Source of the DNA: Acidobacteriota bacterium
GTDB lineage: Bacteria; Acidobacteriota; Terriglobia; Acidiferrales; UBA7541
Assembly: GCA_003224525.1 (NCBI GenBank)
Contig: QHZB01000185.1
Coordinates: 1 to 50,782 of the forward strand
Reading direction: 5' to 3'
Length of the DNA stretch: 50,782 bases
Below, one piece after another: positions 11,273 to 50,185 of this stretch. The notes under the pieces are model-generated. The model worked only from the letters and a program-made list of their open reading frames with translations, did not search any database and was not told where the DNA came from. Position numbers and translations under genes: made by a program. Numbering within the stretch: the first letter of the stretch is position 1; the number at the start of each line of letters is the position of its first letter.

Positions 11273-11341
11273 ATGACAATTTCGATTGACGCCAACAACT
11301 TGGTCGCCTTCGGTAAGGGAAAAGATGCCGTTCCCGTCTAG
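11273..11341 (+). pseudogene. 5' stub of a PIN-domain toxin
   Basis: ATG 11273 begins MTISIDANNLVAF, resembling the first strand and catalytic Asp of VapC toxins (IDANVLVA), and stops after 22 codons at 11339-11341. It follows the broken AbrB antitoxin at the usual distance. Everything after the first strand is missing. The stop overlaps the 3' end of the M20-like gene on the other strand, which may be where the deletion ended. Confidence 0.5.
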
Positions 11342-12957
11342 TTCGCTTGCGCAAGCCCGTACAGAAGCTCGACGAACGAGCGAACGGCGCCGTCCATGCC
11401 GTGGACCTTGGGATTTTTCGATTCGATGACGTAGTACTCGTCGGGAGCATGCGCGCCGCTTCCGTGGCCGAGACCAAACGGGCCCGCCGCCAGGTGGAGC
11501 GGCTCGCCGGTGAACACGTAGCCGGGCCACGAGCCCGCGCTGCGCGGAAGAATGACCGGATCGATTCCGCCTTTGCGATACACCTCGGTCTCAACGTGGA
11601 TGAGCGCGGCATCGGCAGCCGTGCTGTTGGGATCGTATCCTCCGGTCATGCGGACTTCGATGTCACCGAAGCCTTTTTTCGCAAGATGAGCTTTGAGCGC
11701 GGCGAGCGCTTCGGCCGCCGTCATGTCCGGAACAAGGCGCAGGTCGAGCTTGGCCACGGCTTTTCCGGGAAGAATGGTTTTTCCGCCGGGTCCGGTGTAG
11801 CCGCCGACGAGGCCTTCGATGTTCACGGTGGGCCGCGACATCAAGAGTTCCAGGGCCTCGCGCCAGCTTACGTCGTGAACCCAGTGCTCCACGCCAAGAA
11901 GTTTTTTTGCTTCCGCCTCGCTCAAGCGGCGCGCCGCTTCCGCGATCATTTTCTTCTCGGCTTCGGAAATCGGGCGGGCCTTATCGGCAAAGCTTTCGAT
12001 GGCGGGATCGTTGCCGTCGGGCGAGACAAGAGTCGCGAGGGCTTCGACGAGGTGCCACGCGGGACTGTCCAGCCGTGCTTTGTTGCTGGAGTGCACGTCC
12101 TTCCGCGGGCCGCGGCCCCAGTGTTCGCCGCTGGAAATCAGTTCGCATTCGATGACGCCCTTTGCGCCCAGCGTCATAGTAACTTCGCCGTCCAGACCTT
12201 GCGAGGCACTAGGCATGAAAATTCCAAGGCAGTTCTTCAAGGCCGCCATCGCCTCCGGCCGGCGCACAATTTGCGGAAAGTGCGGTGAACCGATTTCCTC
12301 CTCTCCTTCGGCCACGAACACCAAATTTACGGGGAGCTTTTTGCCGGCGCCGTGAATTGCGTGCAGCGCGGCTAGAAACGACGCTTCCGGACCTTTCTGA
12401 TTTACGGCGCCGCGACCCATGACGACTTTTCCCAGGCCGGGTTTATCAACCAGAGCCGCTTCGAATGGCGGCGAAGACCACTCGGCGGGATCTGCCTGCT
12501 TCACGTCGTACATGTAATAAAGGCCGAGGGTTCGCGGAGCGCCGGCATCCAGCGTGGCGAAGATGCCGGGCTGGCCGTCGGTGGGCACTTTCACCGCTTG
12601 CTGGAATCCTGCTTCGCGCAGCATGCGCACGGTCAGCTCGCAGCCCTCGTTCATTCCGCGGTTTTCGGCGGCGATGGACGGCTGGCGGATCCAGTCCTGC
12701 AGACGCTTCACGGATGCGTCGTGGCGCTTTTCGATTTCGGCGCGAATCGCGTCCATGTCGCCGGGATGAGCGGACGCCCAGCGGGGCATCGCCAGAGCTG
12801 CCGCGGCAGCAGCGGCTCCCTGGAGGAAGGCACGGCGGTCTGCTGACGGAAAGTTCTCAGCGGAAGGCGCGTCGTTAGTCGTGGTCGCGCATTTTTCCTC
12901 GGCGCGATTCTTTGCCCGCTCGCCCCTGCTGTCCTCGAAGTGAGAGGAATTTGACAT
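11338..12957 (-). CDS. Tat-exported M20-family peptidase-like protein
   Basis: 539 residues. After about 40 N-terminal residues a twin-arginine signal appears (DRRAFLQGAAAAAAALAMP, cut near WASA), so the protein is exported folded. The body matches M20/ArgE/DapE-type peptidases: WSSPPFEAAL, MGRGAVNQKG, AEGEEEIGSPH and a C-terminal GSGAHAPDEYY. The usual GHYDV is YMYDV and the usual bridging Asp in GRGxxDxKG is Asn, so two metal ligands are replaced while the Glu pair and late His remain. The start is ATG 12957 with AGGAGG upstream; GTG 12960 is also possible. Confidence 0.85.
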   Translation of the reverse strand: MSNSSHFEDSRGERAKNRAEEKCATTTNDAPSAENFPSADRRAFLQGAAAAAAALAMPRWASAHPGDMDAIRAEIEKRHDASVKRLQDWIRQPSIAAENRGMNEGCELTVRMLREAGFQQAVKVPTDGQPGIFATLDAGAPRTLGLYYMYDVKQADPAEWSSPPFEAALVDKPGLGKVVMGRGAVNQKGPEASFLAALHAIHGAGKKLPVNLVFVAEGEEEIGSPHFPQIVRRPEAMAALKNCLGIFMPSASQGLDGEVTMTLGAKGVIECELISSGEHWGRGPRKDVHSSNKARLDSPAWHLVEALATLVSPDGNDPAIESFADKARPISEAEKKMIAEAARRLSEAEAKKLLGVEHWVHDVSWREALELLMSRPTVNIEGLVGGYTGPGGKTILPGKAVAKLDLRLVPDMTAAEALAALKAHLAKKGFGDIEVRMTGGYDPNSTAADAALIHVETEVYRKGGIDPVILPRSAGSWPGYVFTGEPLHLAAGPFGLGHGSGAHAPDEYYVIESKNPKVHGMDGAVRSFVELLYGLAQAN

Positions 12958-13034
12958 CACTGCCTCCTGTTGCGCGTTAAGTGGAATGATTCACTGTGCG
13001 GCCATTTCAACGCGGCAGAGTACACCTTTTGGAT

Positions 13035-14141: not shown

Positions 14142-14282
14142 TCTAGCAGGAGGCGGTACTTCCTGAACGAAGTGCGGTCCATTTCCGGAGTTCCCTGTAT
14201 TTGCTCGGAATAATTTCCAATCCAGGATTGTGCCAACGGCCATAGCTAACTTCTACATGGCGGCGAGTCCTAAACGAAACAT

Positions 14283-14311
14283 TTGTTTCTGGCACTCCGC
14301 TGGCTTAGACT
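14283..14311 (+). promoter_or_regulatory. Candidate promoter of the aldolase-PQQ module
   Basis: TTGTTT (14283-14288), 17 bases, TAGACT (14306-14311), 29 bases before the start of the DapA-like gene. Each box has only three or four consensus matches, so this is a weak call based on spacing and position. Confidence 0.3.
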
Positions 14312-14340: not shown

Positions 14341-15348
14341 ATGCAAACCACGAGAAGAACTTTTCTGGGTGCCGTCGGAGCGACCGCCGCGCTGGGAGTT
14401 GCCGGCGGCGCAAGAATTCCGGAAGCGCTGGTGGCCGAGCCACGCGTAGCAAATGTTCCCGCCGCATCGGGCGAAAAGGTTTTGTTCTGGGTCGCGGCCT
14501 CGACGCCTTGTAACAAGAATCTGAAATTCGATGAAGAACTGTACAAGGATCTGCTCGCCTACTTGAAATCGAGCGGCGCCGACGGCGTAGTCGTCCTCGG
14601 AACGACCGGCGAATTCCCCTCCTTCTCGGTGGCCGAACGAAAGAAAGTAGCCGAGACCGCCTTCAAGCACAGAAACGGCTTGAACATTATCGTATCCCCG
14701 GGTACCGCGAATTTTCCCGAGACGCTGGAACTCTCTCAACATGCGGAAGCCAATGGTGCGGACGGCCTGCTCGTGGTGCCGCCGTTTTATTACAAGCATC
14801 CGCGGCTGGATGGATTGACGAAATATTTTTCGATGCTTTTCGAGCAAGTAAAAATTCCCATCAATCTTTACCACATTCCGTTTGCCACAGGCGTGCCCAT
14901 CAGTCATGAATTGTTGCAGGCCATGGAGAAATATCCGAACCTTGCGGGGATCAAGGATTCCGCAAGCGATCCCACGGTCTATCAGCAATTCGTCGCGGAG
15001 TTCCCGAAGCTGAACATGCGTACCGGCACAACGGAGAATCTGAAGTACGCGCTGGACCACAACATGGGCGCTATCCTCGCCGAAGGCAACAACTTCACGA
15101 AACAGATCGCCTCGGTATTCGCCGCGAAGCGCTCCGGCAAGGACCTCAGCGAATCCATCGCCAAGCTGGAAGCCGCGATGAAACTGCTGCGCGAGGGCGG
15201 CGTCGATGAATATGGCCCCATGAAGTACGCTCTCAGTTTGCAAATGGGGACGCGGCAGTTTTATCAGCGGCCGCCGAACTCCGACGTGACGGACGAGCAA
15301 AAAGCAAAAATCAAGCAGGCGGTGGAACAAATCAAGCAGATGGGATAA
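14341..15348 (+). CDS. Tat-exported DapA-family aldolase/lyase
   Basis: 335 residues with ATG 14341 after GGGAGGG. The N-terminus is a clear twin-arginine signal, TTRRTFLGAVGATAALGVAGG. The mature domain is a class I (Schiff-base) aldolase of the dihydrodipicolinate synthase family: VVLGTTGEFPSFS, VVPPFYY, NLYHIP with the catalytic Tyr, and AGIKDSASD with the Schiff-base Lys. DapA relatives are normally cytoplasmic, so an exported one suggests a periplasmic 2-keto-acid aldolase or lyase rather than lysine synthesis. It is followed 40 bases later by the PQQ dehydrogenase on the same strand. Confidence 0.88.
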   Translation: MQTTRRTFLGAVGATAALGVAGGARIPEALVAEPRVANVPAASGEKVLFWVAASTPCNKNLKFDEELYKDLLAYLKSSGADGVVVLGTTGEFPSFSVAERKKVAETAFKHRNGLNIIVSPGTANFPETLELSQHAEANGADGLLVVPPFYYKHPRLDGLTKYFSMLFEQVKIPINLYHIPFATGVPISHELLQAMEKYPNLAGIKDSASDPTVYQQFVAEFPKLNMRTGTTENLKYALDHNMGAILAEGNNFTKQIASVFAAKRSGKDLSESIAKLEAAMKLLREGGVDEYGPMKYALSLQMGTRQFYQRPPNSDVTDEQKAKIKQAVEQIKQMG

Positions 15349-15388
15349 GCGGATAACGACAGGCGAGAAACTCAGCGGAGGAGCGAAG

Positions 15389-17458
15389 ATGCGCGAGAGG
15401 AAACCAAAGCGCCTAGACGTTTTGTTGTTCTTGTTTCTTGCAGGATTCCTGTGCTGGCCTGTGGTTGCATCCGCTCAGTTTCATCCGAAGGACACGGAGT
15501 GGCCGTCCTACGCCGCCGATCTTGCGGGGACTCGATACCGGCCGCTGGACCAGATCAACGCCGCCAACTTCAGCGACTTGGAAATCGCCTGGCGCATCAA
15601 GACGGACAACTTCGGTGACCGGCCGGAGTACAAGCTCGAAGGTACGCCGCTCATGGTGAACGGCGTTTTGTACGCGACGGCGGGGTCGCGGCGAGCGGTG
15701 ATTGCGCTGGATCCGGCCACCGGAGAATTGCTCTGGATCCACGGCGAGCATGAGGGAAAACGCGGCGGCGCCGCTCCTCGCCAGCTTTCCGGCCGCGGGC
15801 TGGCTTATTGGTCCGATGGCAAAGAAGAGCGAATCCTGTATGTGACGCCGGGGTTTCGGCTCATTTGCCTGGATGCGAAGACTGGCGTTCGAATTCCTTC
15901 TTTTGGAAACACTGGCGAAGTGGATTTGAAACTGAATGACGATCAGGACATTTTCCCGGATTTGATCACCGGCGAAATCGGCATCCAGTCCGCGCCGGTG
16001 GTGGCGAAGGACACGGTGATTATCGGCGCGGCTTTCCGCGAAGGGATGACGCCGAAGAGCATGCGCAACAATAAGGGATACGTGCGTGGATTCGACGTTC
16101 GAACCGGCAAGCGGCTCTGGATTTTCCATACCATCCCGAAGAAGGGCGAGTTTGGCTACGACACGTGGGAAAAGAGTTCGGCGGAATATACGGGCAACAC
16201 CGGTGTGTGGACACAAATCACCGTGGACGAACAACTCGGCCTGGTCTATCTGCCGGTGGAATCACCGACCAGCGATTTTTACGGCGGGCACCGGCCGGGC
16301 AATAATTTGTTCGGCGAGACGCTGGTTTGTGTGGATTTGAAAACCGGTGAGCGCAAGTGGCACTTTCAATTGGTGCACCACCCTTTGTGGGACATGGATA
16401 TTTCCTCCGCGCCTATTCTTGCGGACATCACCGTCGACGGAAAACCCGTCAAGGCCGTGGCCCAGCCGTCGAAGCAAGGATTTCTTTACGTCTTCGATCG
16501 CGCGACCGGCAAACCTATCTGGCCGATTCCTGAGCGGCCAGTGGAAGTCGGCAACGTGCCGGGCGAGTGGTATTCGCCCACGCAGCCGATTCCGTCGAAA
16601 CCTGCGGCCTACAGCCGCAATGGCGTTTCCATCGACGACTTGATCGACTTCACGCCTGCACTTCGCGAACAGGCAACAGAGATTGCCTCAAAGTTTCACC
16701 TCGGGCCGGTGTACACCCCTCCGACCATGAGCAAACTGGAAGGTCCGCTCGGCACGCTCACGATGGGGACTGCCTCCGGCGGGACGAACTGGCCAGGCGG
16801 ATCTTACGATCCGGAAACTCACAACGTTTATGTCTACGCTTGCAACTCCTGCATCGAGCCGATCGGACTCGTGCCGGCGCCCAAAGAAGTCTCCGACATC
16901 AACTACGTCGCGGGTACCGCCGGAAGAACGGTTGAAATCCTTCATGGTCCAGGTGAAAACGCCGGAGCTGATTCTCCCAAGCCTCCAAGAAGACCTGCTG
17001 GCGGCGGCTTTGTGCGCTTGGATGTCGATGGTTTGCCGCTGGTCAAACCTCCGTACGGAACAATAACGGCGATCAATCTCGATAAAGGTGAGTTCGTCTG
17101 GCAGATCGCACACGGCGAAACGCCGGATGTCGTTCGCAACTACGAGGCTCTCAAAGGCCTGAACATCGCGCGCACCGGGCAGGAGACGTACAACATCGGC
17201 ACGCTGGTGACCAAGACGCTGGTCATCGCGGGGGAAGGGCATGTGACGACGACTGCGGATCATCCGCGCGGCGCGATGTTGCGCGCCTACGATAAGGCCA
17301 CCGGCAAAGAGGTCGGCGCGGTCTACATGCCGGCTCCGCAGACCGGATCGCCGATGACCTACATGGTGAACGGAAAACAGTACATCGTTGTTGCCGTCAG
17401 CGGAGGGCCTTACTCGGGCGAGTACATTGCCTACGCGCTGCCATCGACGGGGGAGTGA
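15389..17458 (+). CDS. Periplasmic PQQ-dependent dehydrogenase (glucose-dehydrogenase-like)
   Basis: 689 residues with a signal peptide (LLFLFLAGFLCWPVVASAQ). The rest is an eight-bladed quinoprotein propeller: repeated ALDPATGELLW, CLDAKTG, FDVRTGKRLW and CVDLKTGERKW units, HHPLWDMDISSAPIL, and SKQGFLYVFDRATGKP followed by IPERPV. These last segments are typical of membrane glucose dehydrogenase, but the five N-terminal membrane helices of that enzyme are absent, so this form is soluble. It would oxidise a sugar or alcohol and hand electrons to the cytochrome c encoded next. Confidence 0.92.
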   Translation: MRERKPKRLDVLLFLFLAGFLCWPVVASAQFHPKDTEWPSYAADLAGTRYRPLDQINAANFSDLEIAWRIKTDNFGDRPEYKLEGTPLMVNGVLYATAGSRRAVIALDPATGELLWIHGEHEGKRGGAAPRQLSGRGLAYWSDGKEERILYVTPGFRLICLDAKTGVRIPSFGNTGEVDLKLNDDQDIFPDLITGEIGIQSAPVVAKDTVIIGAAFREGMTPKSMRNNKGYVRGFDVRTGKRLWIFHTIPKKGEFGYDTWEKSSAEYTGNTGVWTQITVDEQLGLVYLPVESPTSDFYGGHRPGNNLFGETLVCVDLKTGERKWHFQLVHHPLWDMDISSAPILADITVDGKPVKAVAQPSKQGFLYVFDRATGKPIWPIPERPVEVGNVPGEWYSPTQPIPSKPAAYSRNGVSIDDLIDFTPALREQATEIASKFHLGPVYTPPTMSKLEGPLGTLTMGTASGGTNWPGGSYDPETHNVYVYACNSCIEPIGLVPAPKEVSDINYVAGTAGRTVEILHGPGENAGADSPKPPRRPAGGGFVRLDVDGLPLVKPPYGTITAINLDKGEFVWQIAHGETPDVVRNYEALKGLNIARTGQETYNIGTLVTKTLVIAGEGHVTTTADHPRGAMLRAYDKATGKEVGAVYMPAPQTGSPMTYMVNGKQYIVVAVSGGPYSGEYIAYALPSTGE

Positions 17459-17511
17459 ACGCGCTGCCGCGCGGCCGTTCCATCGGATGGGAAAGCGATG
17501 ACGACTCGGAG

Positions 17512-17961
17512 ATGAGAAACGCAGCGGCAATAGTTGGTTTACTTGTGATCACTTCGCCGCTTTGCCTGCTTCGAGCGCAAGCACCAGCGGCGGAGTCGCG
17601 CTCCGTGTGGGACGGCGTGTACACCGAGGACCAGGCCAAGCGCGGGGAGCCGATTTACCACAAGGAATGCGCGACTTGCCACGGCGACATGCTCACCGGA
17701 GGTGAATCCGCGCCCCCGCTGACAGGCGGAGCATTCCTCGCGAATTGGAGCGGCCTCACGATGGGTGACTTGTTCGACAGAATTCGCAAGACCATGCCTC
17801 AGAGCGCTCCGGGACGCCTCACCCGGCAACAAGACGCGGACATTCTGGCCTTCATGCTGAGTGTTAACAAGTTTCCGGCCGGAAAAACGGAGCTCTACCG
17901 GCAGTTGGAGATGCTCAAAGAAATTCGCTTCGAATCGGCGAAGCCGGCTCCCAAGAAATAG
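17512..17961 (+). CDS. Exported cytochrome c, single haem
   Basis: 149 residues. A signal peptide (AAAIVGLLVITSPLCLLRAQA) is followed by a class I cytochrome c with the haem motif CATCH and a distal Met in the KTMPQSAPG region. The start at ATG 17512 puts the signal peptide at the N-terminus; a GTG at 17455 overlapping the previous stop by GTGA is an alternative and would imply coupling. Its position right after the PQQ dehydrogenase makes it the probable electron acceptor. Confidence 0.9.
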   Translation: MRNAAAIVGLLVITSPLCLLRAQAPAAESRSVWDGVYTEDQAKRGEPIYHKECATCHGDMLTGGESAPPLTGGAFLANWSGLTMGDLFDRIRKTMPQSAPGRLTRQQDADILAFMLSVNKFPAGKTELYRQLEMLKEIRFESAKPAPKK

Positions 17962-18036
17962 CGAGAATGAAAATTTGGACTCGAACGTATCAACACAAAC
18001 TCGGTTTTCGAGATTTCACGCACGGAGGATTGCTTT

Positions 18037-18765
18037 ATGAAAAGAATGCTTCCCGTACTCTTAATTGGCGCGGCACTTCTCGGCTACTTGGTCAGCTACG
18101 CTTCAAAATCTTCTCCGCAACCCATTCTCAGCGGCCACTTCGACGATCTTTCGATGATCCCCAGCACCAACGCCCAGGACAGCAAAAACGAAGTCATGCC
18201 CTTCGGTTTCAATTCTCCCAAAGAACCACCTCTCGCGCCCGATGCTCCGCCCGTCACGTACTGGAACATCGACGACATTCGCAAAGCGCACACCGATATG
18301 GCCGAGAGAGCCGCCAAAATGGTCAAAGAAGCCGGCAGCGGAAGTTCCCAGTCGTTTGGCGGCGGGCCGGTGCACGTCCAGACGCGCAACTTCAGCATGT
18401 TTATGCTCTACCGCATGTATCGCGACAAGCCCGTCCTCAGCTTGACCAAAGTCGACAGCGTTCTTGATGACGCCGAGCAGCACGCCGGTGCCTACGATTT
18501 CTATGTTTTCACCGGTGGTTCGGGCGAAATGATCCTCGGCGGAAAAATTGCCAACCGCCAGAACCTTAAGGATAAGGACGGGATCATCCCAGGGGAATAC
18601 CGCGGCCAGCCGGTCGTCGGTGGGCAAACCTACAAAGTGAAAGCCGGCGATTGGCTGCTGATTCCGCCTGACACGCCGCACCAGCCCAAGCCGGATCCCG
18701 GCGGCTTCAGCTACTTCATCATGAAAATTAACGTTGGCGTTTATCCCTGGAGCCTGATTCGCTAG
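18037..18765 (+). CDS. Exported cupin-domain protein
   Basis: 242 residues with GGAGGA upstream of ATG 18037. The N-terminal membrane segment MLPVLLIGAALLGYLVSYA directs export or anchoring. The C-terminal half is a cupin: AYDFYVFTGGSGEMILGGK and AGDWLLIPPDTPHQPKPD, with the His and acidic positions that hold a metal in this fold. It is the fourth gene of the aldolase-PQQ-cytochrome run, 75 bases after the cytochrome gene. A role in binding or isomerising the same substrate is inference. Confidence 0.75.
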   Translation: MKRMLPVLLIGAALLGYLVSYASKSSPQPILSGHFDDLSMIPSTNAQDSKNEVMPFGFNSPKEPPLAPDAPPVTYWNIDDIRKAHTDMAERAAKMVKEAGSGSSQSFGGGPVHVQTRNFSMFMLYRMYRDKPVLSLTKVDSVLDDAEQHAGAYDFYVFTGGSGEMILGGKIANRQNLKDKDGIIPGEYRGQPVVGGQTYKVKAGDWLLIPPDTPHQPKPDPGGFSYFIMKINVGVYPWSLIR

Positions 18766-42878: not shown

Positions 42879-45104
42879 TCACGCTGTGGAAAGTGTTGCG
42901 CGGTTCGATGAAATCACGTGGCTTTTGCCTTGATGCCGCAGATTCACCAGCCGCGCCTTAGGATCAAAGTCTGCGAGGCGCGACTGAACCCTAATCCCGT
43001 CAAAAAGAGTCAAGTTCGCGCCGAATATAGTGTTGATGACCAGATCCATGAAACCTCCACCGGAGATGCAGCACCAGTCATTAAGGTAGGGTGCATCCGT
43101 GGGACACTTATATGCAGCTCCGTGTTCCAGTGGAAACGCAGTCTCAACAAAGTGTGCCTGCCCGATTGGACCCTGGTTCCCGGCCTTTCCCAGATTTTTT
43201 ACCCAAGCCGAAACCCGTGCTGATGAATCCGTACTGTACAGTCCTTTAGCCGTTGCGGGAGGCCATGCCGAGTATGCGCCCAACCAACTATGGTCCGGCC
43301 GAATATTCCATGTCGCGTCCACGTCGTCAGGTGAGAGCGCTCGCATCCAGTAATTGCTGTGGAGTTGCTCCCAGAAGAATCCGCTCATCTCCCGCTTCTG
43401 TGCATCGCTGAGATCTTCAAGCATGTTGTCCAGCACGGAAAGGAAGTCGTAACAGTGTCGGACCTCCAGGAAGGAGCCATCCGGTTGCCCACATTTCCAC
43501 CAGCCCTTCCCTGGAACATACAGTTTTTCATTGATGCGTTGCGCGAGGTTCTTTGCCTCAGCGCGTAATTGGGAAGCATGCGACGAATTACCGCGCCGTT
43601 CGAGCAAGTCCGCAACGAAGCGCATGGAAGACACGTTGCCGGCATTCATTCCGGCGGTTTCGTGCAGATATGTGCTCACAACTTCGAGCAAGTTTTCCAG
43701 TTTTCCATAATCGCCCAGGCCGTGGGAAGCCTTGTCGAGCAGTTTCCAGTAGGTAGCGTGAAATAGCAGATGATCCAGAGCTGTCTTGTCGTGAATGCGT
43801 TTATCGAGCCACGCGAGGTCGCCGGTGACTCGCAGATAGTTTTGAGCGCATCGTACGATGGCCATGTCGTTCACGCCATACCATGGTCCGACGGCCTCAC
43901 CGGTGACGTAGTCGGTCGCGAGATGCTGATGCATGTCCTGCACAAACCAGTTTTCGACCAGCCGGCGCAGCGCATCCGGATCGAGCAGTGCAAGGCTCAA
44001 TGAAGTCAGTGATGTATCCCAGGGAAAGCTAAGAGTCGGAAGCACCCGGCCGCCCAGCGTGATGTAAGTAGTTCCATACTTCGAATCCGGGGAGACCCGC
44101 CGCGCAAATATTAGGTTTCTGAAACCCGCCATATAGAGTTGCCACAGGGATTCGTCATCGGTTTCGAGCTGCGGAAGATAGCCGGAAAAGTCCGAATTCC
44201 CCGGAGTGAATGCCGACCGCAATAAACTGTTGAACGCCTGCTCGTTCTCACGCAAGACCTGGCGGAAATTGGCCTGAAGATCGTCATAGGCCGTCAGTGC
44301 GGCTTGCCCGTCAGCGTCGACTACGTTTACATGATGGAGTTCTTTTGTTTCTCCGCGCCCGAGCGTCACTTCGACAACCAACATCCGACCTGAATCGACA
44401 CCGCTCACCTTTGGCGAGATCCCTTGTACGGAAACCGCCTGGCTGTGCTGCGCTTCGAATACGAGGCAGCCGCGAGTTTCATCCCAGTGGATCAGATTGT
44501 CCGGTTCTCCCGGCGAATACGTCATCCATTGTGTCGTCTTTTTGGCTACAGCTGCACGCATGTCGAAACCGAGTTTTATCTTCCGCGGCTCGTTGGCGAG
44601 GTTCTTGATGCGAATGGATTCAGCGACGGCACGACGTTTCGGGGGCATGAACATTTCGGTCGTGAATTTCAATCCATCGGCCTGGGTTTCACGCACGACC
44701 CGATGGGGGTGCCATGTATAGGCGACTTCATCACCGCCGTCCGGATACGAAATGAGGATGCGGCCATTCAAGAACAGTTCACAGGAAAGGAGAAAGCCGG
44801 GACTCCAGGGGGTGTCGGGAACTCCGCAACAGCCGAAAGGCGGCAATGACAGGGCCGTAATTCCGGAGACCGACTTTGCTGCTTGCACGTATCCGTATTC
44901 GTTTTGCGCGGTCGGCGAACTGTACAGGTCTCTAAGGCGATGAACCAGCCGATCACCAGACAGATCATGCAAAGTTGGGATAGCCGGCAGATGCGTGCGA
45001 ATTCGAGAAGCTGCAAGACTGGAGAGGCGGGAAAGCAGACCCGCTGCGGCACCTGCCTTCAAAAAAGATCTGCGATTCCATGTCAGTTGCGTTTGCCGGC
45101 TCAT
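42879..45104 (-). CDS. Tat-exported six-hairpin glycosidase-like protein
   Basis: 741 residues, ATG 45104 after GGAGGCGAG. The twin-arginine signal NRRSFLKAGAAAGLLSRL sends it out folded. A beta-sandwich N-terminal part (about 40-280) precedes an alpha-helical toroid: TLSFPWDTSLTSLSLALLD, YGVNDMAIVRCAQNYL, YDFLSVLDNMLEDLS, HSWLGAYSAWPPATAKG and CPTDAPYLNDWCCISGGGF. This domain order fits (alpha/alpha)6 glycoside hydrolases; candidate acids are Asp in PWDTS and in PDHSW, which is inference. It forms an operon with the ROK kinase and matches the broken gene at 35156 in size and signal. Confidence 0.82.
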   Translation of the reverse strand: MSRQTQLTWNRRSFLKAGAAAGLLSRLSSLAASRIRTHLPAIPTLHDLSGDRLVHRLRDLYSSPTAQNEYGYVQAAKSVSGITALSLPPFGCCGVPDTPWSPGFLLSCELFLNGRILISYPDGGDEVAYTWHPHRVVRETQADGLKFTTEMFMPPKRRAVAESIRIKNLANEPRKIKLGFDMRAAVAKKTTQWMTYSPGEPDNLIHWDETRGCLVFEAQHSQAVSVQGISPKVSGVDSGRMLVVEVTLGRGETKELHHVNVVDADGQAALTAYDDLQANFRQVLRENEQAFNSLLRSAFTPGNSDFSGYLPQLETDDESLWQLYMAGFRNLIFARRVSPDSKYGTTYITLGGRVLPTLSFPWDTSLTSLSLALLDPDALRRLVENWFVQDMHQHLATDYVTGEAVGPWYGVNDMAIVRCAQNYLRVTGDLAWLDKRIHDKTALDHLLFHATYWKLLDKASHGLGDYGKLENLLEVVSTYLHETAGMNAGNVSSMRFVADLLERRGNSSHASQLRAEAKNLAQRINEKLYVPGKGWWKCGQPDGSFLEVRHCYDFLSVLDNMLEDLSDAQKREMSGFFWEQLHSNYWMRALSPDDVDATWNIRPDHSWLGAYSAWPPATAKGLYSTDSSARVSAWVKNLGKAGNQGPIGQAHFVETAFPLEHGAAYKCPTDAPYLNDWCCISGGGFMDLVINTIFGANLTLFDGIRVQSRLADFDPKARLVNLRHQGKSHVISSNRATLSTA

Positions 45105-47946: not shown

Positions 47947-48917
47947 GAGCGTCCGGCGCAAGCTCGCCCTCCCCGTTCTCACTGGAACGATACAGAGCCA
48001 ACAGATCCAATATTTCCACCAAGAAATTAGCAGTCTATTGTCTGTTTCTGCTGACTTGGGTTTCAGCAGTCGAAGCCCAAACGACCGTCGCACACCCGCT
48101 CGCTGCAAGGGGTCGGAAAGCGCTTGTAAGGGACGCTGTTTTTCACAGCACCTCTCTCGAACGCGACATGCGTTATCGGGTGCTTCTTCCCCAACATTAC
48201 GAAAGCGGTGGAAGGTTCCCTGTGCTCTATTTGCTGCACGGTCTCTACGGCGACTATCTCAACTGGGACACCAGAACCAATCTGGAAAATTACGCACGAG
48301 ATATGCGTCTGCTGATCGTAATGCCGGATGCAGACAACTCCTGGTACACCGATTCTGCGACAGTTCCACAAGACAAGTTTGAAGATTACATCGCGAAAGA
48401 CCTGATATCCGAGGTCGATGAGAAATATCGCACTATTCGCGCGCGACACGGGCGCGCAATTGCCGGACTTTCGATGGGCGGGTATGGCGCGGCGAAATTG
48501 GCGCTCAAGTACCCTGAGTTGTTCGCATTCGCCGGCAGTCTAAGCGGTGCGTTGAATGCGCCTCACAATCTTGACACGCTCAGGCCCGAGTTCCGCACCA
48601 AGCTCCTGGAAGTTTTCGGCAATGAGGGGAGTCCACAGCGCGCCGACAATGACATTTTTCCGCTGTTGAACACTCCGCCACAGACTCCCTATCCGTATTT
48701 TTACTTGGCTTGCGGTACCGAAGATTTCTTTTTGGATACAAATCGCACCTTCACGTTGCAGCTCTCATCCCACAAACTTGCTTATGAGTACCATGAAACG
48801 CCGGGGGCGCACGCCTGGGAGTACTGGAACAGCGCGTTAGAACCAATGCTGCAGACCGTTGAGCAAATGATTGGCGAGTCTCCGAAGTCGGCACATTCAA
48901 AGCAGAAGAAACCATGA
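47943..48917 (+). CDS. Exported esterase of the esterase-D/S-formylglutathione-hydrolase type
   Basis: 324 residues from ATG 47943, which overlaps the previous stop. An internal hydrophobic signal ([18 protein letters not shown]) lies after 30 polar residues. The alpha/beta-hydrolase core has [15 protein letters not shown] for the oxyanion hole, the nucleophile in [10 protein letters not shown], an acid in CGTEDFF and the His in PGAHAWEYW. Members remove acetyl, feruloyl or similar esters from sugars, which fits a polysaccharide-trimming role. It overlaps the dehydratase gene by ATGA. Confidence 0.88.
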
Positions 48918-50185
48918 AGATCGTAGACCTTCGCGCAACCACCGTCGCCGTTCCTTTGGAAGCCCCTCTGCGTCATGCGAACGGAGCACACTGGGGAAGA
49001 TTTGTTCGTACCATCGTGGAGGTCGAAACTGACGATGGCTTGATCGGGTTGGGCGAGATGGGCGGAGGTGGAGAAGCTGCCGAGACCAGTATCCGTGCGC
49101 TGAAACCGTACCTAGTCGGCCACGATCCTCTGCAGCTAGAGCAGTTGTATTGGAAAATCTGCAATCCCACGGCATCCCTTTACAACAATCGGGCACAACT
49201 CCACGCTGCGATCGAATTCGCGTGCATGGATTTGGCCGGCAAGAAGCTTGGGATTCGAGCGTGCGATATGCTTGGCGGCGCATTACGAGAAGAAGTTCGC
49301 TTTGCTAGCTATCTCTTCTATCGCTACGCCGATCCGAAGACTGGACTGGGCGGCGAGGAAACCGCGGATCAGATGGTTGCGGCAGCAAGGAAACTGAAAC
49401 GGGAACACGGATTTCGCTCGCACAAATTGAAGGGCGGTGTTTTCCCTCCGGATCACGACTTGGAGGTTTACTTGGCGCTCGCAGCGGAATTTCCCGAGGA
49501 CTCGTTTCGGCTGGACCCCAATGCCGCCTGGAGCGTTGAGGAATCCATTCGCATCGGACGCGCCATAGAGACAGTCCGGAATGACTACTTCGAAGATCCC
49601 TGCTGGGGATTGGAGGGAATGCGCCGCGTCCGATCATTCGTTAAGATTCCCACCGCAACGAACACGGTGGTGGTTAATTTTGAACAGCTCGCCGCCTGCA
49701 TCCGACTGAATGCCATAGATGTAATCCTGCTGGACACGACTTTTTGGGGTGGACTGCGCCAAGCGTGGAAGGCGACGGTTGTCTGTGAAAAATTTCAGTG
49801 GGGAATCAGCATTCATTCGAGCGGAGAATTGGGAATTCAGTTAGCCACCATGCTTCATCTAGGAGCCGCTATCCCCAACCTGACTTTTGCAGCCGATGCC
49901 CATTATCACCATCTCACCGACGACATTCTGAAAGGCGGCAAGATGAAGTACGTTGACGGCAAGATTGCCGTTCCTACGGGCAATGGATTGGGCGTGGAGC
50001 TAGACCGCGATAAATTGCAACTATACGCAGAATTGTTTCGGAGCACCGGCGGCTATGCTTATGACCGCGACCCACAGCGCCCGCAATGGTTTGCCGTTGT
50101 TCCTGAAACGCGTTTCGCAGAACCGAACGAATGTCGTAGGGGACAGAAAAAGGAGCGATCTCAAAACATTTCCGGTCGCAAATAG
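48914..50185 (+). CDS. Enolase-superfamily sugar-acid dehydratase (glucarate-dehydratase-like)
   Basis: 423 residues. The N-terminal capping domain ([33 protein letters not shown]) precedes a TIM barrel with catalytic HKLKGG, metal ligands in RLDPNAAW and [12 protein letters not shown], and [20 protein letters not shown] with the catalytic His. [14 protein letters not shown] at the end resembles glucarate dehydratases. No signal peptide, so it works in the cytoplasm, dehydrating an aldonate or aldarate to a 2-keto-3-deoxy acid. The product would fit the lactonase, SDR and FAH genes at 26-28 kb. The C-terminal 30 residues are an unconserved basic tail. Confidence 0.9.

Follow-up and report, generated by a model that had tools for sequence, protein, structure and literature searches.

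We describe a four-gene operon in a 50,782-nucleotide contig of a soil acidobacterium (C103, GenBank QHZB01000185.1; the whole stretch is called the window below) that belongs to a metagenome-assembled genome (MAG). The operon encodes a DapA/NAL-family lyase (gene ald) with a predicted twin-arginine translocation (Tat) signal, a predicted soluble pyrroloquinoline quinone (PQQ) dehydrogenase, a cytochrome c and a cupin. Our preferred but tentative reading is that these genes form an oxidation module outside the inner membrane, in which the PQQ dehydrogenase and cytochrome c would be the core, with the cupin and a Tat-exported lyase that would cleave a 2-keto-3-deoxy-type acid as accessories. 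The named relatives that carry the same aldolase are Gp2 Acidobacteria and Candidatus Acidoferrales/Acidiferrum MAGs. The four genes and two upstream elements are as follows.

14341..15348, plus strand: ald, predicted Tat-signal DapA/NAL-family Schiff-base lyase (335 aa; Lys205, Tyr177, and Ala182 at the DapA Arg138 position)
15389..17458, plus strand: predicted soluble PQQ dehydrogenase, glucose-dehydrogenase-like propeller without membrane domain (689 aa; Asp335 and Lys362 equivalent to E. coli Gcd Asp466 and Lys493)
17512..17961, plus strand: predicted exported monohaem cytochrome c (CATCH; adjoins the PQQ gene in 20/20 readable loci)
18037..18765, plus strand: predicted exported or anchored cupin (242 aa; candidate metal ligands Glu147, His149, Asp154 and His215)
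14283..14311, plus strand: promoter-like element TTGTTT-N17-TAGACT (20/20 syntenic loci, against 0.04 expected in shuffles)
14276..14289, strand not applicable: palindrome GAAACATTTGTTTC overlapping the promoter-like element (window's subclade only)

The assignment of the four genes to one conserved operon is supported by their short intergenic gaps (40, 53 and 75 bases), by a gene order that is the same in all eight ald-bearing genomes (the cupin being missing from one), and by the promoter-like element 5′ of the first gene. In all 20 loci this element precedes ald where ald is present and the PQQ gene where it is absent. The palindrome, which resembles a 2-keto-3-deoxygluconate (KDG)-regulator box, was considered as a KdgR-like operator and dropped, as only the window's subclade has it and unrelated sequence occupies its place elsewhere. 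Because it is not conserved in other genomes, no regulator was inferred from it.

The ald product matched the DapA/NAL superfamily profile PF00701 over the whole domain (136 bits, cut-off 22.1). Lys205 (Schiff-base lysine), Tyr177 (catalytic tyrosine) and a GTTGE motif align with those of E. coli DapA, NanA and YagE, and all three features are invariant across the eight orthologues; the roles of the aligned lysine, tyrosine and arginine residues are well established. In the same alignment, Ala182 occupies the position of DapA Arg138. A true dapA that retains this arginine lies on another contig of the genome, within what appears to be a lysine-pathway gene cluster, and the missing arginine together with this separate gene led us to reject ald as the housekeeping DapA. 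A pyruvate-type lyase is the natural reading of these residues, and the most likely reaction would be the splitting of a 2-keto-3-deoxy-type acid in the periplasm, with pyruvate and an aldehyde as products. By profile, the best solved relative is YagE, annotated in E. coli K-12 as 2-dehydro-3-deoxygluconate aldolase; a tblastn search of plasmids yielded only relatives of ~27–32% identity among the matches listed. Median ratios of nonsynonymous to synonymous substitution rates were 0.083 for ald, 0.058 for the PQQ gene, 0.12 for cytochrome c and 0.086 for the cupin; where present, ald is under strong purifying selection.

All four operon proteins have hydrophobic N-termini, and the ald product, which starts at the ATG at 14341 (MQTTRRTFLGAVGATAALG), has a Tat signal. 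Its twin arginine and FLG motif are invariant in 8/8 orthologues, the linker after them differs in both sequence and length, and TatC is encoded in the genome. A conserved twin-arginine signal and the corresponding machinery make the ald product a well-supported candidate Tat substrate, which is probably exported; the N-terminus of the cupin could be an uncleaved anchor rather than a signal peptide. DapA-family enzymes are normally cytoplasmic, and the closest non-operon relatives sampled in the phylum, except the one in genome G192, lack a Tat signal, as they would if ald were an ordinary cytoplasmic member with a false motif. We consider this very improbable, given that the twin arginine and hydrophobic stretch are kept in all orthologues while the following linker varies, and that a separate dapA holds the arginine that ald lacks. 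The earlier note on this sequence had claimed four consecutive plus-strand genes with export signals, the first of them a Tat-signal Schiff-base protein of the DapA family. The genes lie where it placed them, each with a hydrophobic N-terminus, and the PF00701 match, Lys205/Tyr177 and conserved RR agree with its prediction for the first, as a protein distinct from the lysine-pathway DapA.

Inspection and hydrophobicity also revealed N-terminal export signals on the flanking M20 peptidase, Ycf48-like, 163-aa, DUF-like and erythromycin-esterase-like genes. Since neighbouring genes carry them too, the run of export signals is weak evidence for a pathway. The M20-family peptidase gene (window 11338-12960, minus strand) adjoins the operon, is syntenic across the genus and encodes a Tat-like signal, ADRRAFLQGAAAAAAALA. 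Further along the window, a large protein resembling a glycoside hydrolase (42879-45104, minus strand) has the Tat signal WNRRSFLKAGAAAGLLS.

The PQQ dehydrogenase scored 594 bits against PF01011 and retains the propeller with the catalytic residues Asp335 and Lys362, which places it among the PQQ dehydrogenases in general. It falls below the cut-offs of two narrower groups: TIGR03074 (membrane glucose/quinate/shikimate dehydrogenases; 365 bits, cut-off 833), whose membrane domain it lacks, and TIGR04528 (acido-empty-quinoprotein group A; 243 bits, cut-off 650). The gene thus encodes a PQQ-type enzyme, with a substrate that is not readable from the sequence. The genome encodes PqqD and PqqE, the latter scoring above its cut-off in 7/8 ald-bearing genomes, the remaining one being a 73% complete MAG; these genes make an apo-quinoprotein without PQQ unlikely. 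Self-made PQQ fits here, because a published survey of the PQQ importer PqqU found it, within acidobacteria, only in the class Vicinamibacteria (PMC12124388).

The cytochrome c matched PF13442 (40 bits) and contains a single CATCH haem motif. The quinoprotein oxidation chain proposed in the earlier note was thus recovered as a complete pair of PQQ dehydrogenase and cytochrome c, with PQQ synthesis genes in the genome. The cupin scored 27 bits against PF02311 (AraC_binding; cut-off 21) and below the cut-off for Cupin_2. Its candidate Glu-His-Asp-His ligand set is unusual, and its AlphaFold model (mean predicted local distance difference test score, pLDDT, 40) was too poor for a fold search.

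We then analyzed the distribution of the operon in a genus sample of 36 genomes, all MAGs or drafts in which single absences are uncertain. Of these, 21 have the PQQ gene, 14 the cupin and eight ald, in a purely nested pattern: every ald genome and every cupin genome has the PQQ gene. Cytochrome c lies directly 3′ of the PQQ gene in every readable locus. Loci with enough flank have the same surroundings, with ABC-M20-Ycf48 genes on one side and the 163-aa/DUF genes on the other. A search for conserved adjacency, proposed in the earlier note, found ald, the PQQ gene and cytochrome c together in 8/8 ald genomes at one syntenic locus. The absence of co-occurrence that the note had named as refuting its idea was not observed. 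No ald was found in the other genera of the family that we searched, and sampling 396 genomes across the phylum yielded one further, more distant Tat relative (42% identity), in G192, where its neighbours are BNR-domain, glycosidase-like and ceramidase-like genes and no PQQ gene adjoins it. PQQ homologues of ~60% identity occur elsewhere in the phylum without ald or a cupin of this type. A phylum-wide conserved module was therefore rejected. As a separate observation, export signals in the G192 cluster (L031:9353-17302) are found on the Tat-DapA protein, an FAH hydrolase, xylose-isomerase-like barrels and a DJ-1/PfpI-like protein, all normally cytoplasmic folds, with BNR and glycosidase-like genes alongside.

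In the preferred reading, the soluble PQQ dehydrogenase would hand electrons to the adjacent cytochrome c, forming the core of the module to which the cupin and the Tat-exported lyase would be accessory. In the periplasm, Lys205 of the lyase would form a Schiff base with a 2-keto acid, and a 2-keto-3-deoxy-type acid would be cleaved to give pyruvate and an aldehyde. This aldehyde may then be oxidised by the PQQ enzyme, in which case the two enzymes would have a metabolite in common; alternatively, the PQQ enzyme may act on another sugar or alcohol.

Several observations weigh against this reading, the first being that ald is dispensable. The PQQ-cytochrome pair is kept in 13 genomes in which we found no intact ald, and in six of them (G018, G003, G019, G001, G002 and G015) ald is visibly deleted or a pseudogene. 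In all of these except G003, the leader joins directly onto a remnant of the ald 3′ end just 5′ of the PQQ gene, and in each case no more than one of 300 shuffles reached the score of the remnant. In G003, ald is broken and its Tat-like start is still present; this genome is the sister of G018, and a 7-base deletion is common to both. Taking G018/G003, the G019/G001/G002 group and G015 together on the PQQ tree, in which several forks are unresolved, we count at least two and probably three separate losses. The other PQQ genomes without ald have no recognisable ald scar; the argument for loss rests on the scars, not on the absences. Since the PQQ and cytochrome c genes remain after ald is lost, the PQQ enzyme is independent of ald, and the repeated loss of ald while the pair stays identifies the pair as the core and ald as an accessory. 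The earlier note's idea of ald and the PQQ enzyme as one fixed periplasmic pathway is not supported by this comparison. A stable core with optional cupin and ald speaks for a common compartment and operon, and against a single pathway in which both enzymes are obligatory; cupin and ald are accessories needed by some lineages and shed by others.

The same losses bear on an alternative that we consider somewhat less likely than the preferred reading, in which ald is co-transcribed with the PQQ module and acts on an unrelated compound, with compartment and promoter alone in common. The persistence of the pair without ald, the G192 relative among glycosidase-like and BNR-domain genes, and the further exported genes flanking the operon all favour it. 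However, every ald found in the genus (8/8) is accompanied by the PQQ gene, and ald has been kept as first gene of the same operon over a long divergence.

Two further observations concern this locus. In G017 (L012:4795-6930), ald has no stop codon of its own and its frame continues into the PQQ signal peptide, giving a 981-aa open frame; the PQQ gene there is frameshifted near residue 386, and with the read-through this represents either an assembly error or decay. An exported amidohydrolase (PF01979) is encoded at L110, L111, L112, L114, L117, L118 (ald slot), L013 and L116: several ald-less genomes have it between Ycf48 and the PQQ gene, on the opposite strand, and it is likewise close to the operon in G011, G022 and the distant G165.

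The classification of the lyase likewise tempers the preferred reading. The ald product reached no NCBIfam subfamily cut-off: it scored 129 bits against the dapA equivalog TIGR00674 (cut-off 206), 96 against the archaeal KDG aldolase NF040954 (cut-off 390), and 72 and 92 against the N-acetylneuraminate lyase models TIGR00683 (cut-off 382) and NF003164 (cut-off 281). These scores therefore do not distinguish an aldolase from a related lyase, hydratase or dehydratase, and the AlphaFold model (mean pLDDT 56) was too poor for a fold search. By the NCBIfam model list, the PF00701 superfamily takes in dehydratases such as KdgD, so the fold might serve a dehydratase-, hydratase- or epimerase-type reaction, or binding only; the invariance of Lys, Tyr and GTTGE among the orthologues makes this improbable.

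Finally, the four-gene operon holds no dehydratase and no transporter, and none of its genes encodes an enzyme producing a keto acid. A further alternative is a reversed order of steps, as in a periplasmic Dahms-like route: outside the cell, the PQQ enzyme would first convert an aldose into an aldonate, from which a dehydratase would yield a 2-keto-3-deoxy acid for ald to cleave. In E. coli, the YagE gene adjoins a D-xylonate dehydratase gene, and a second ILVD/EDD-type dehydratase was present in 6/8 ald genomes compared with 1/6 ald-loss genomes, a post hoc contrast that is not significant (Fisher two-sided p = 0.10), is confounded by phylogeny, genome size and completeness, and is only a lead. 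We identified no dehydratase carrying an export signal; the middle step would therefore require the product to cross the membrane twice, and we regard this order as unlikely. Elsewhere in the window, ~30 kb from the operon, an enolase-superfamily (MR_MLE) gene (48914-50185, plus strand) resembles a sugar-acid dehydratase and has no signal peptide.

A broader version of the preferred reading, which we hold to be rather doubtful, is that carbon–carbon splitting takes place in the periplasm: ald would cleave keto acids derived from soil polymers or from PQQ oxidation, the PQQ enzyme would oxidise the aldehyde and pass electrons into cytochrome c, and only pyruvate and an acid would be taken up. 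Central keto-acid aldolases are treated as cytoplasmic; no exported bacterial keto-acid aldolase was described in the literature searched, and the open-access papers searched contained no assays of export, activity or substrates. If true, the link between a strongly selected, Tat-exported aldolase and a quinoprotein respiratory module would mean that extracytoplasmic oxidation in soil acidobacteria, which are abundant and mostly uncultured, goes beyond oxidising sugars and includes their cleavage. The natural ald deletions supply ready-made comparisons between relatives that have the aldolase and relatives that lack it.

The literature searched contained no description of a quinoprotein/cytochrome c pair combined with a Tat-exported lyase and a cupin; the parts have counterparts among known systems. 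E. coli YagE has the fold family and the Schiff-base Lys and Tyr in common with ald and likewise lacks an Arg at the DapA Arg138 position, but it is only 28% identical, has no signal peptide and neighbours a D-xylonate dehydratase, whereas ald neighbours a quinoprotein. DapA (4-hydroxy-tetrahydrodipicolinate synthase) belongs to the same PF00701 family with the same catalytic Lys and Tyr; the E. coli enzyme is 24% identical to ald, which lacks the DapA arginine and has a Tat signal. The membrane-bound PQQ glucose dehydrogenase Gcd of E. coli aligns with the PQQ enzyme over the propeller, including Asp466, Lys493, Trp404, Glu217 and Arg266, yet the two are 33% identical, the PQQ enzyme lacks the N-terminal membrane domain, and Gcd His262 is replaced by Gln. 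A parallel in layout is offered by periplasmic PQQ dehydrogenase and cytochrome c pairs of the alcohol dehydrogenase type, in which, as predicted here, a soluble exported quinoprotein adjoins a monohaem cytochrome c; what sets the present operon apart is the addition of a Tat-signal lyase and a cupin.

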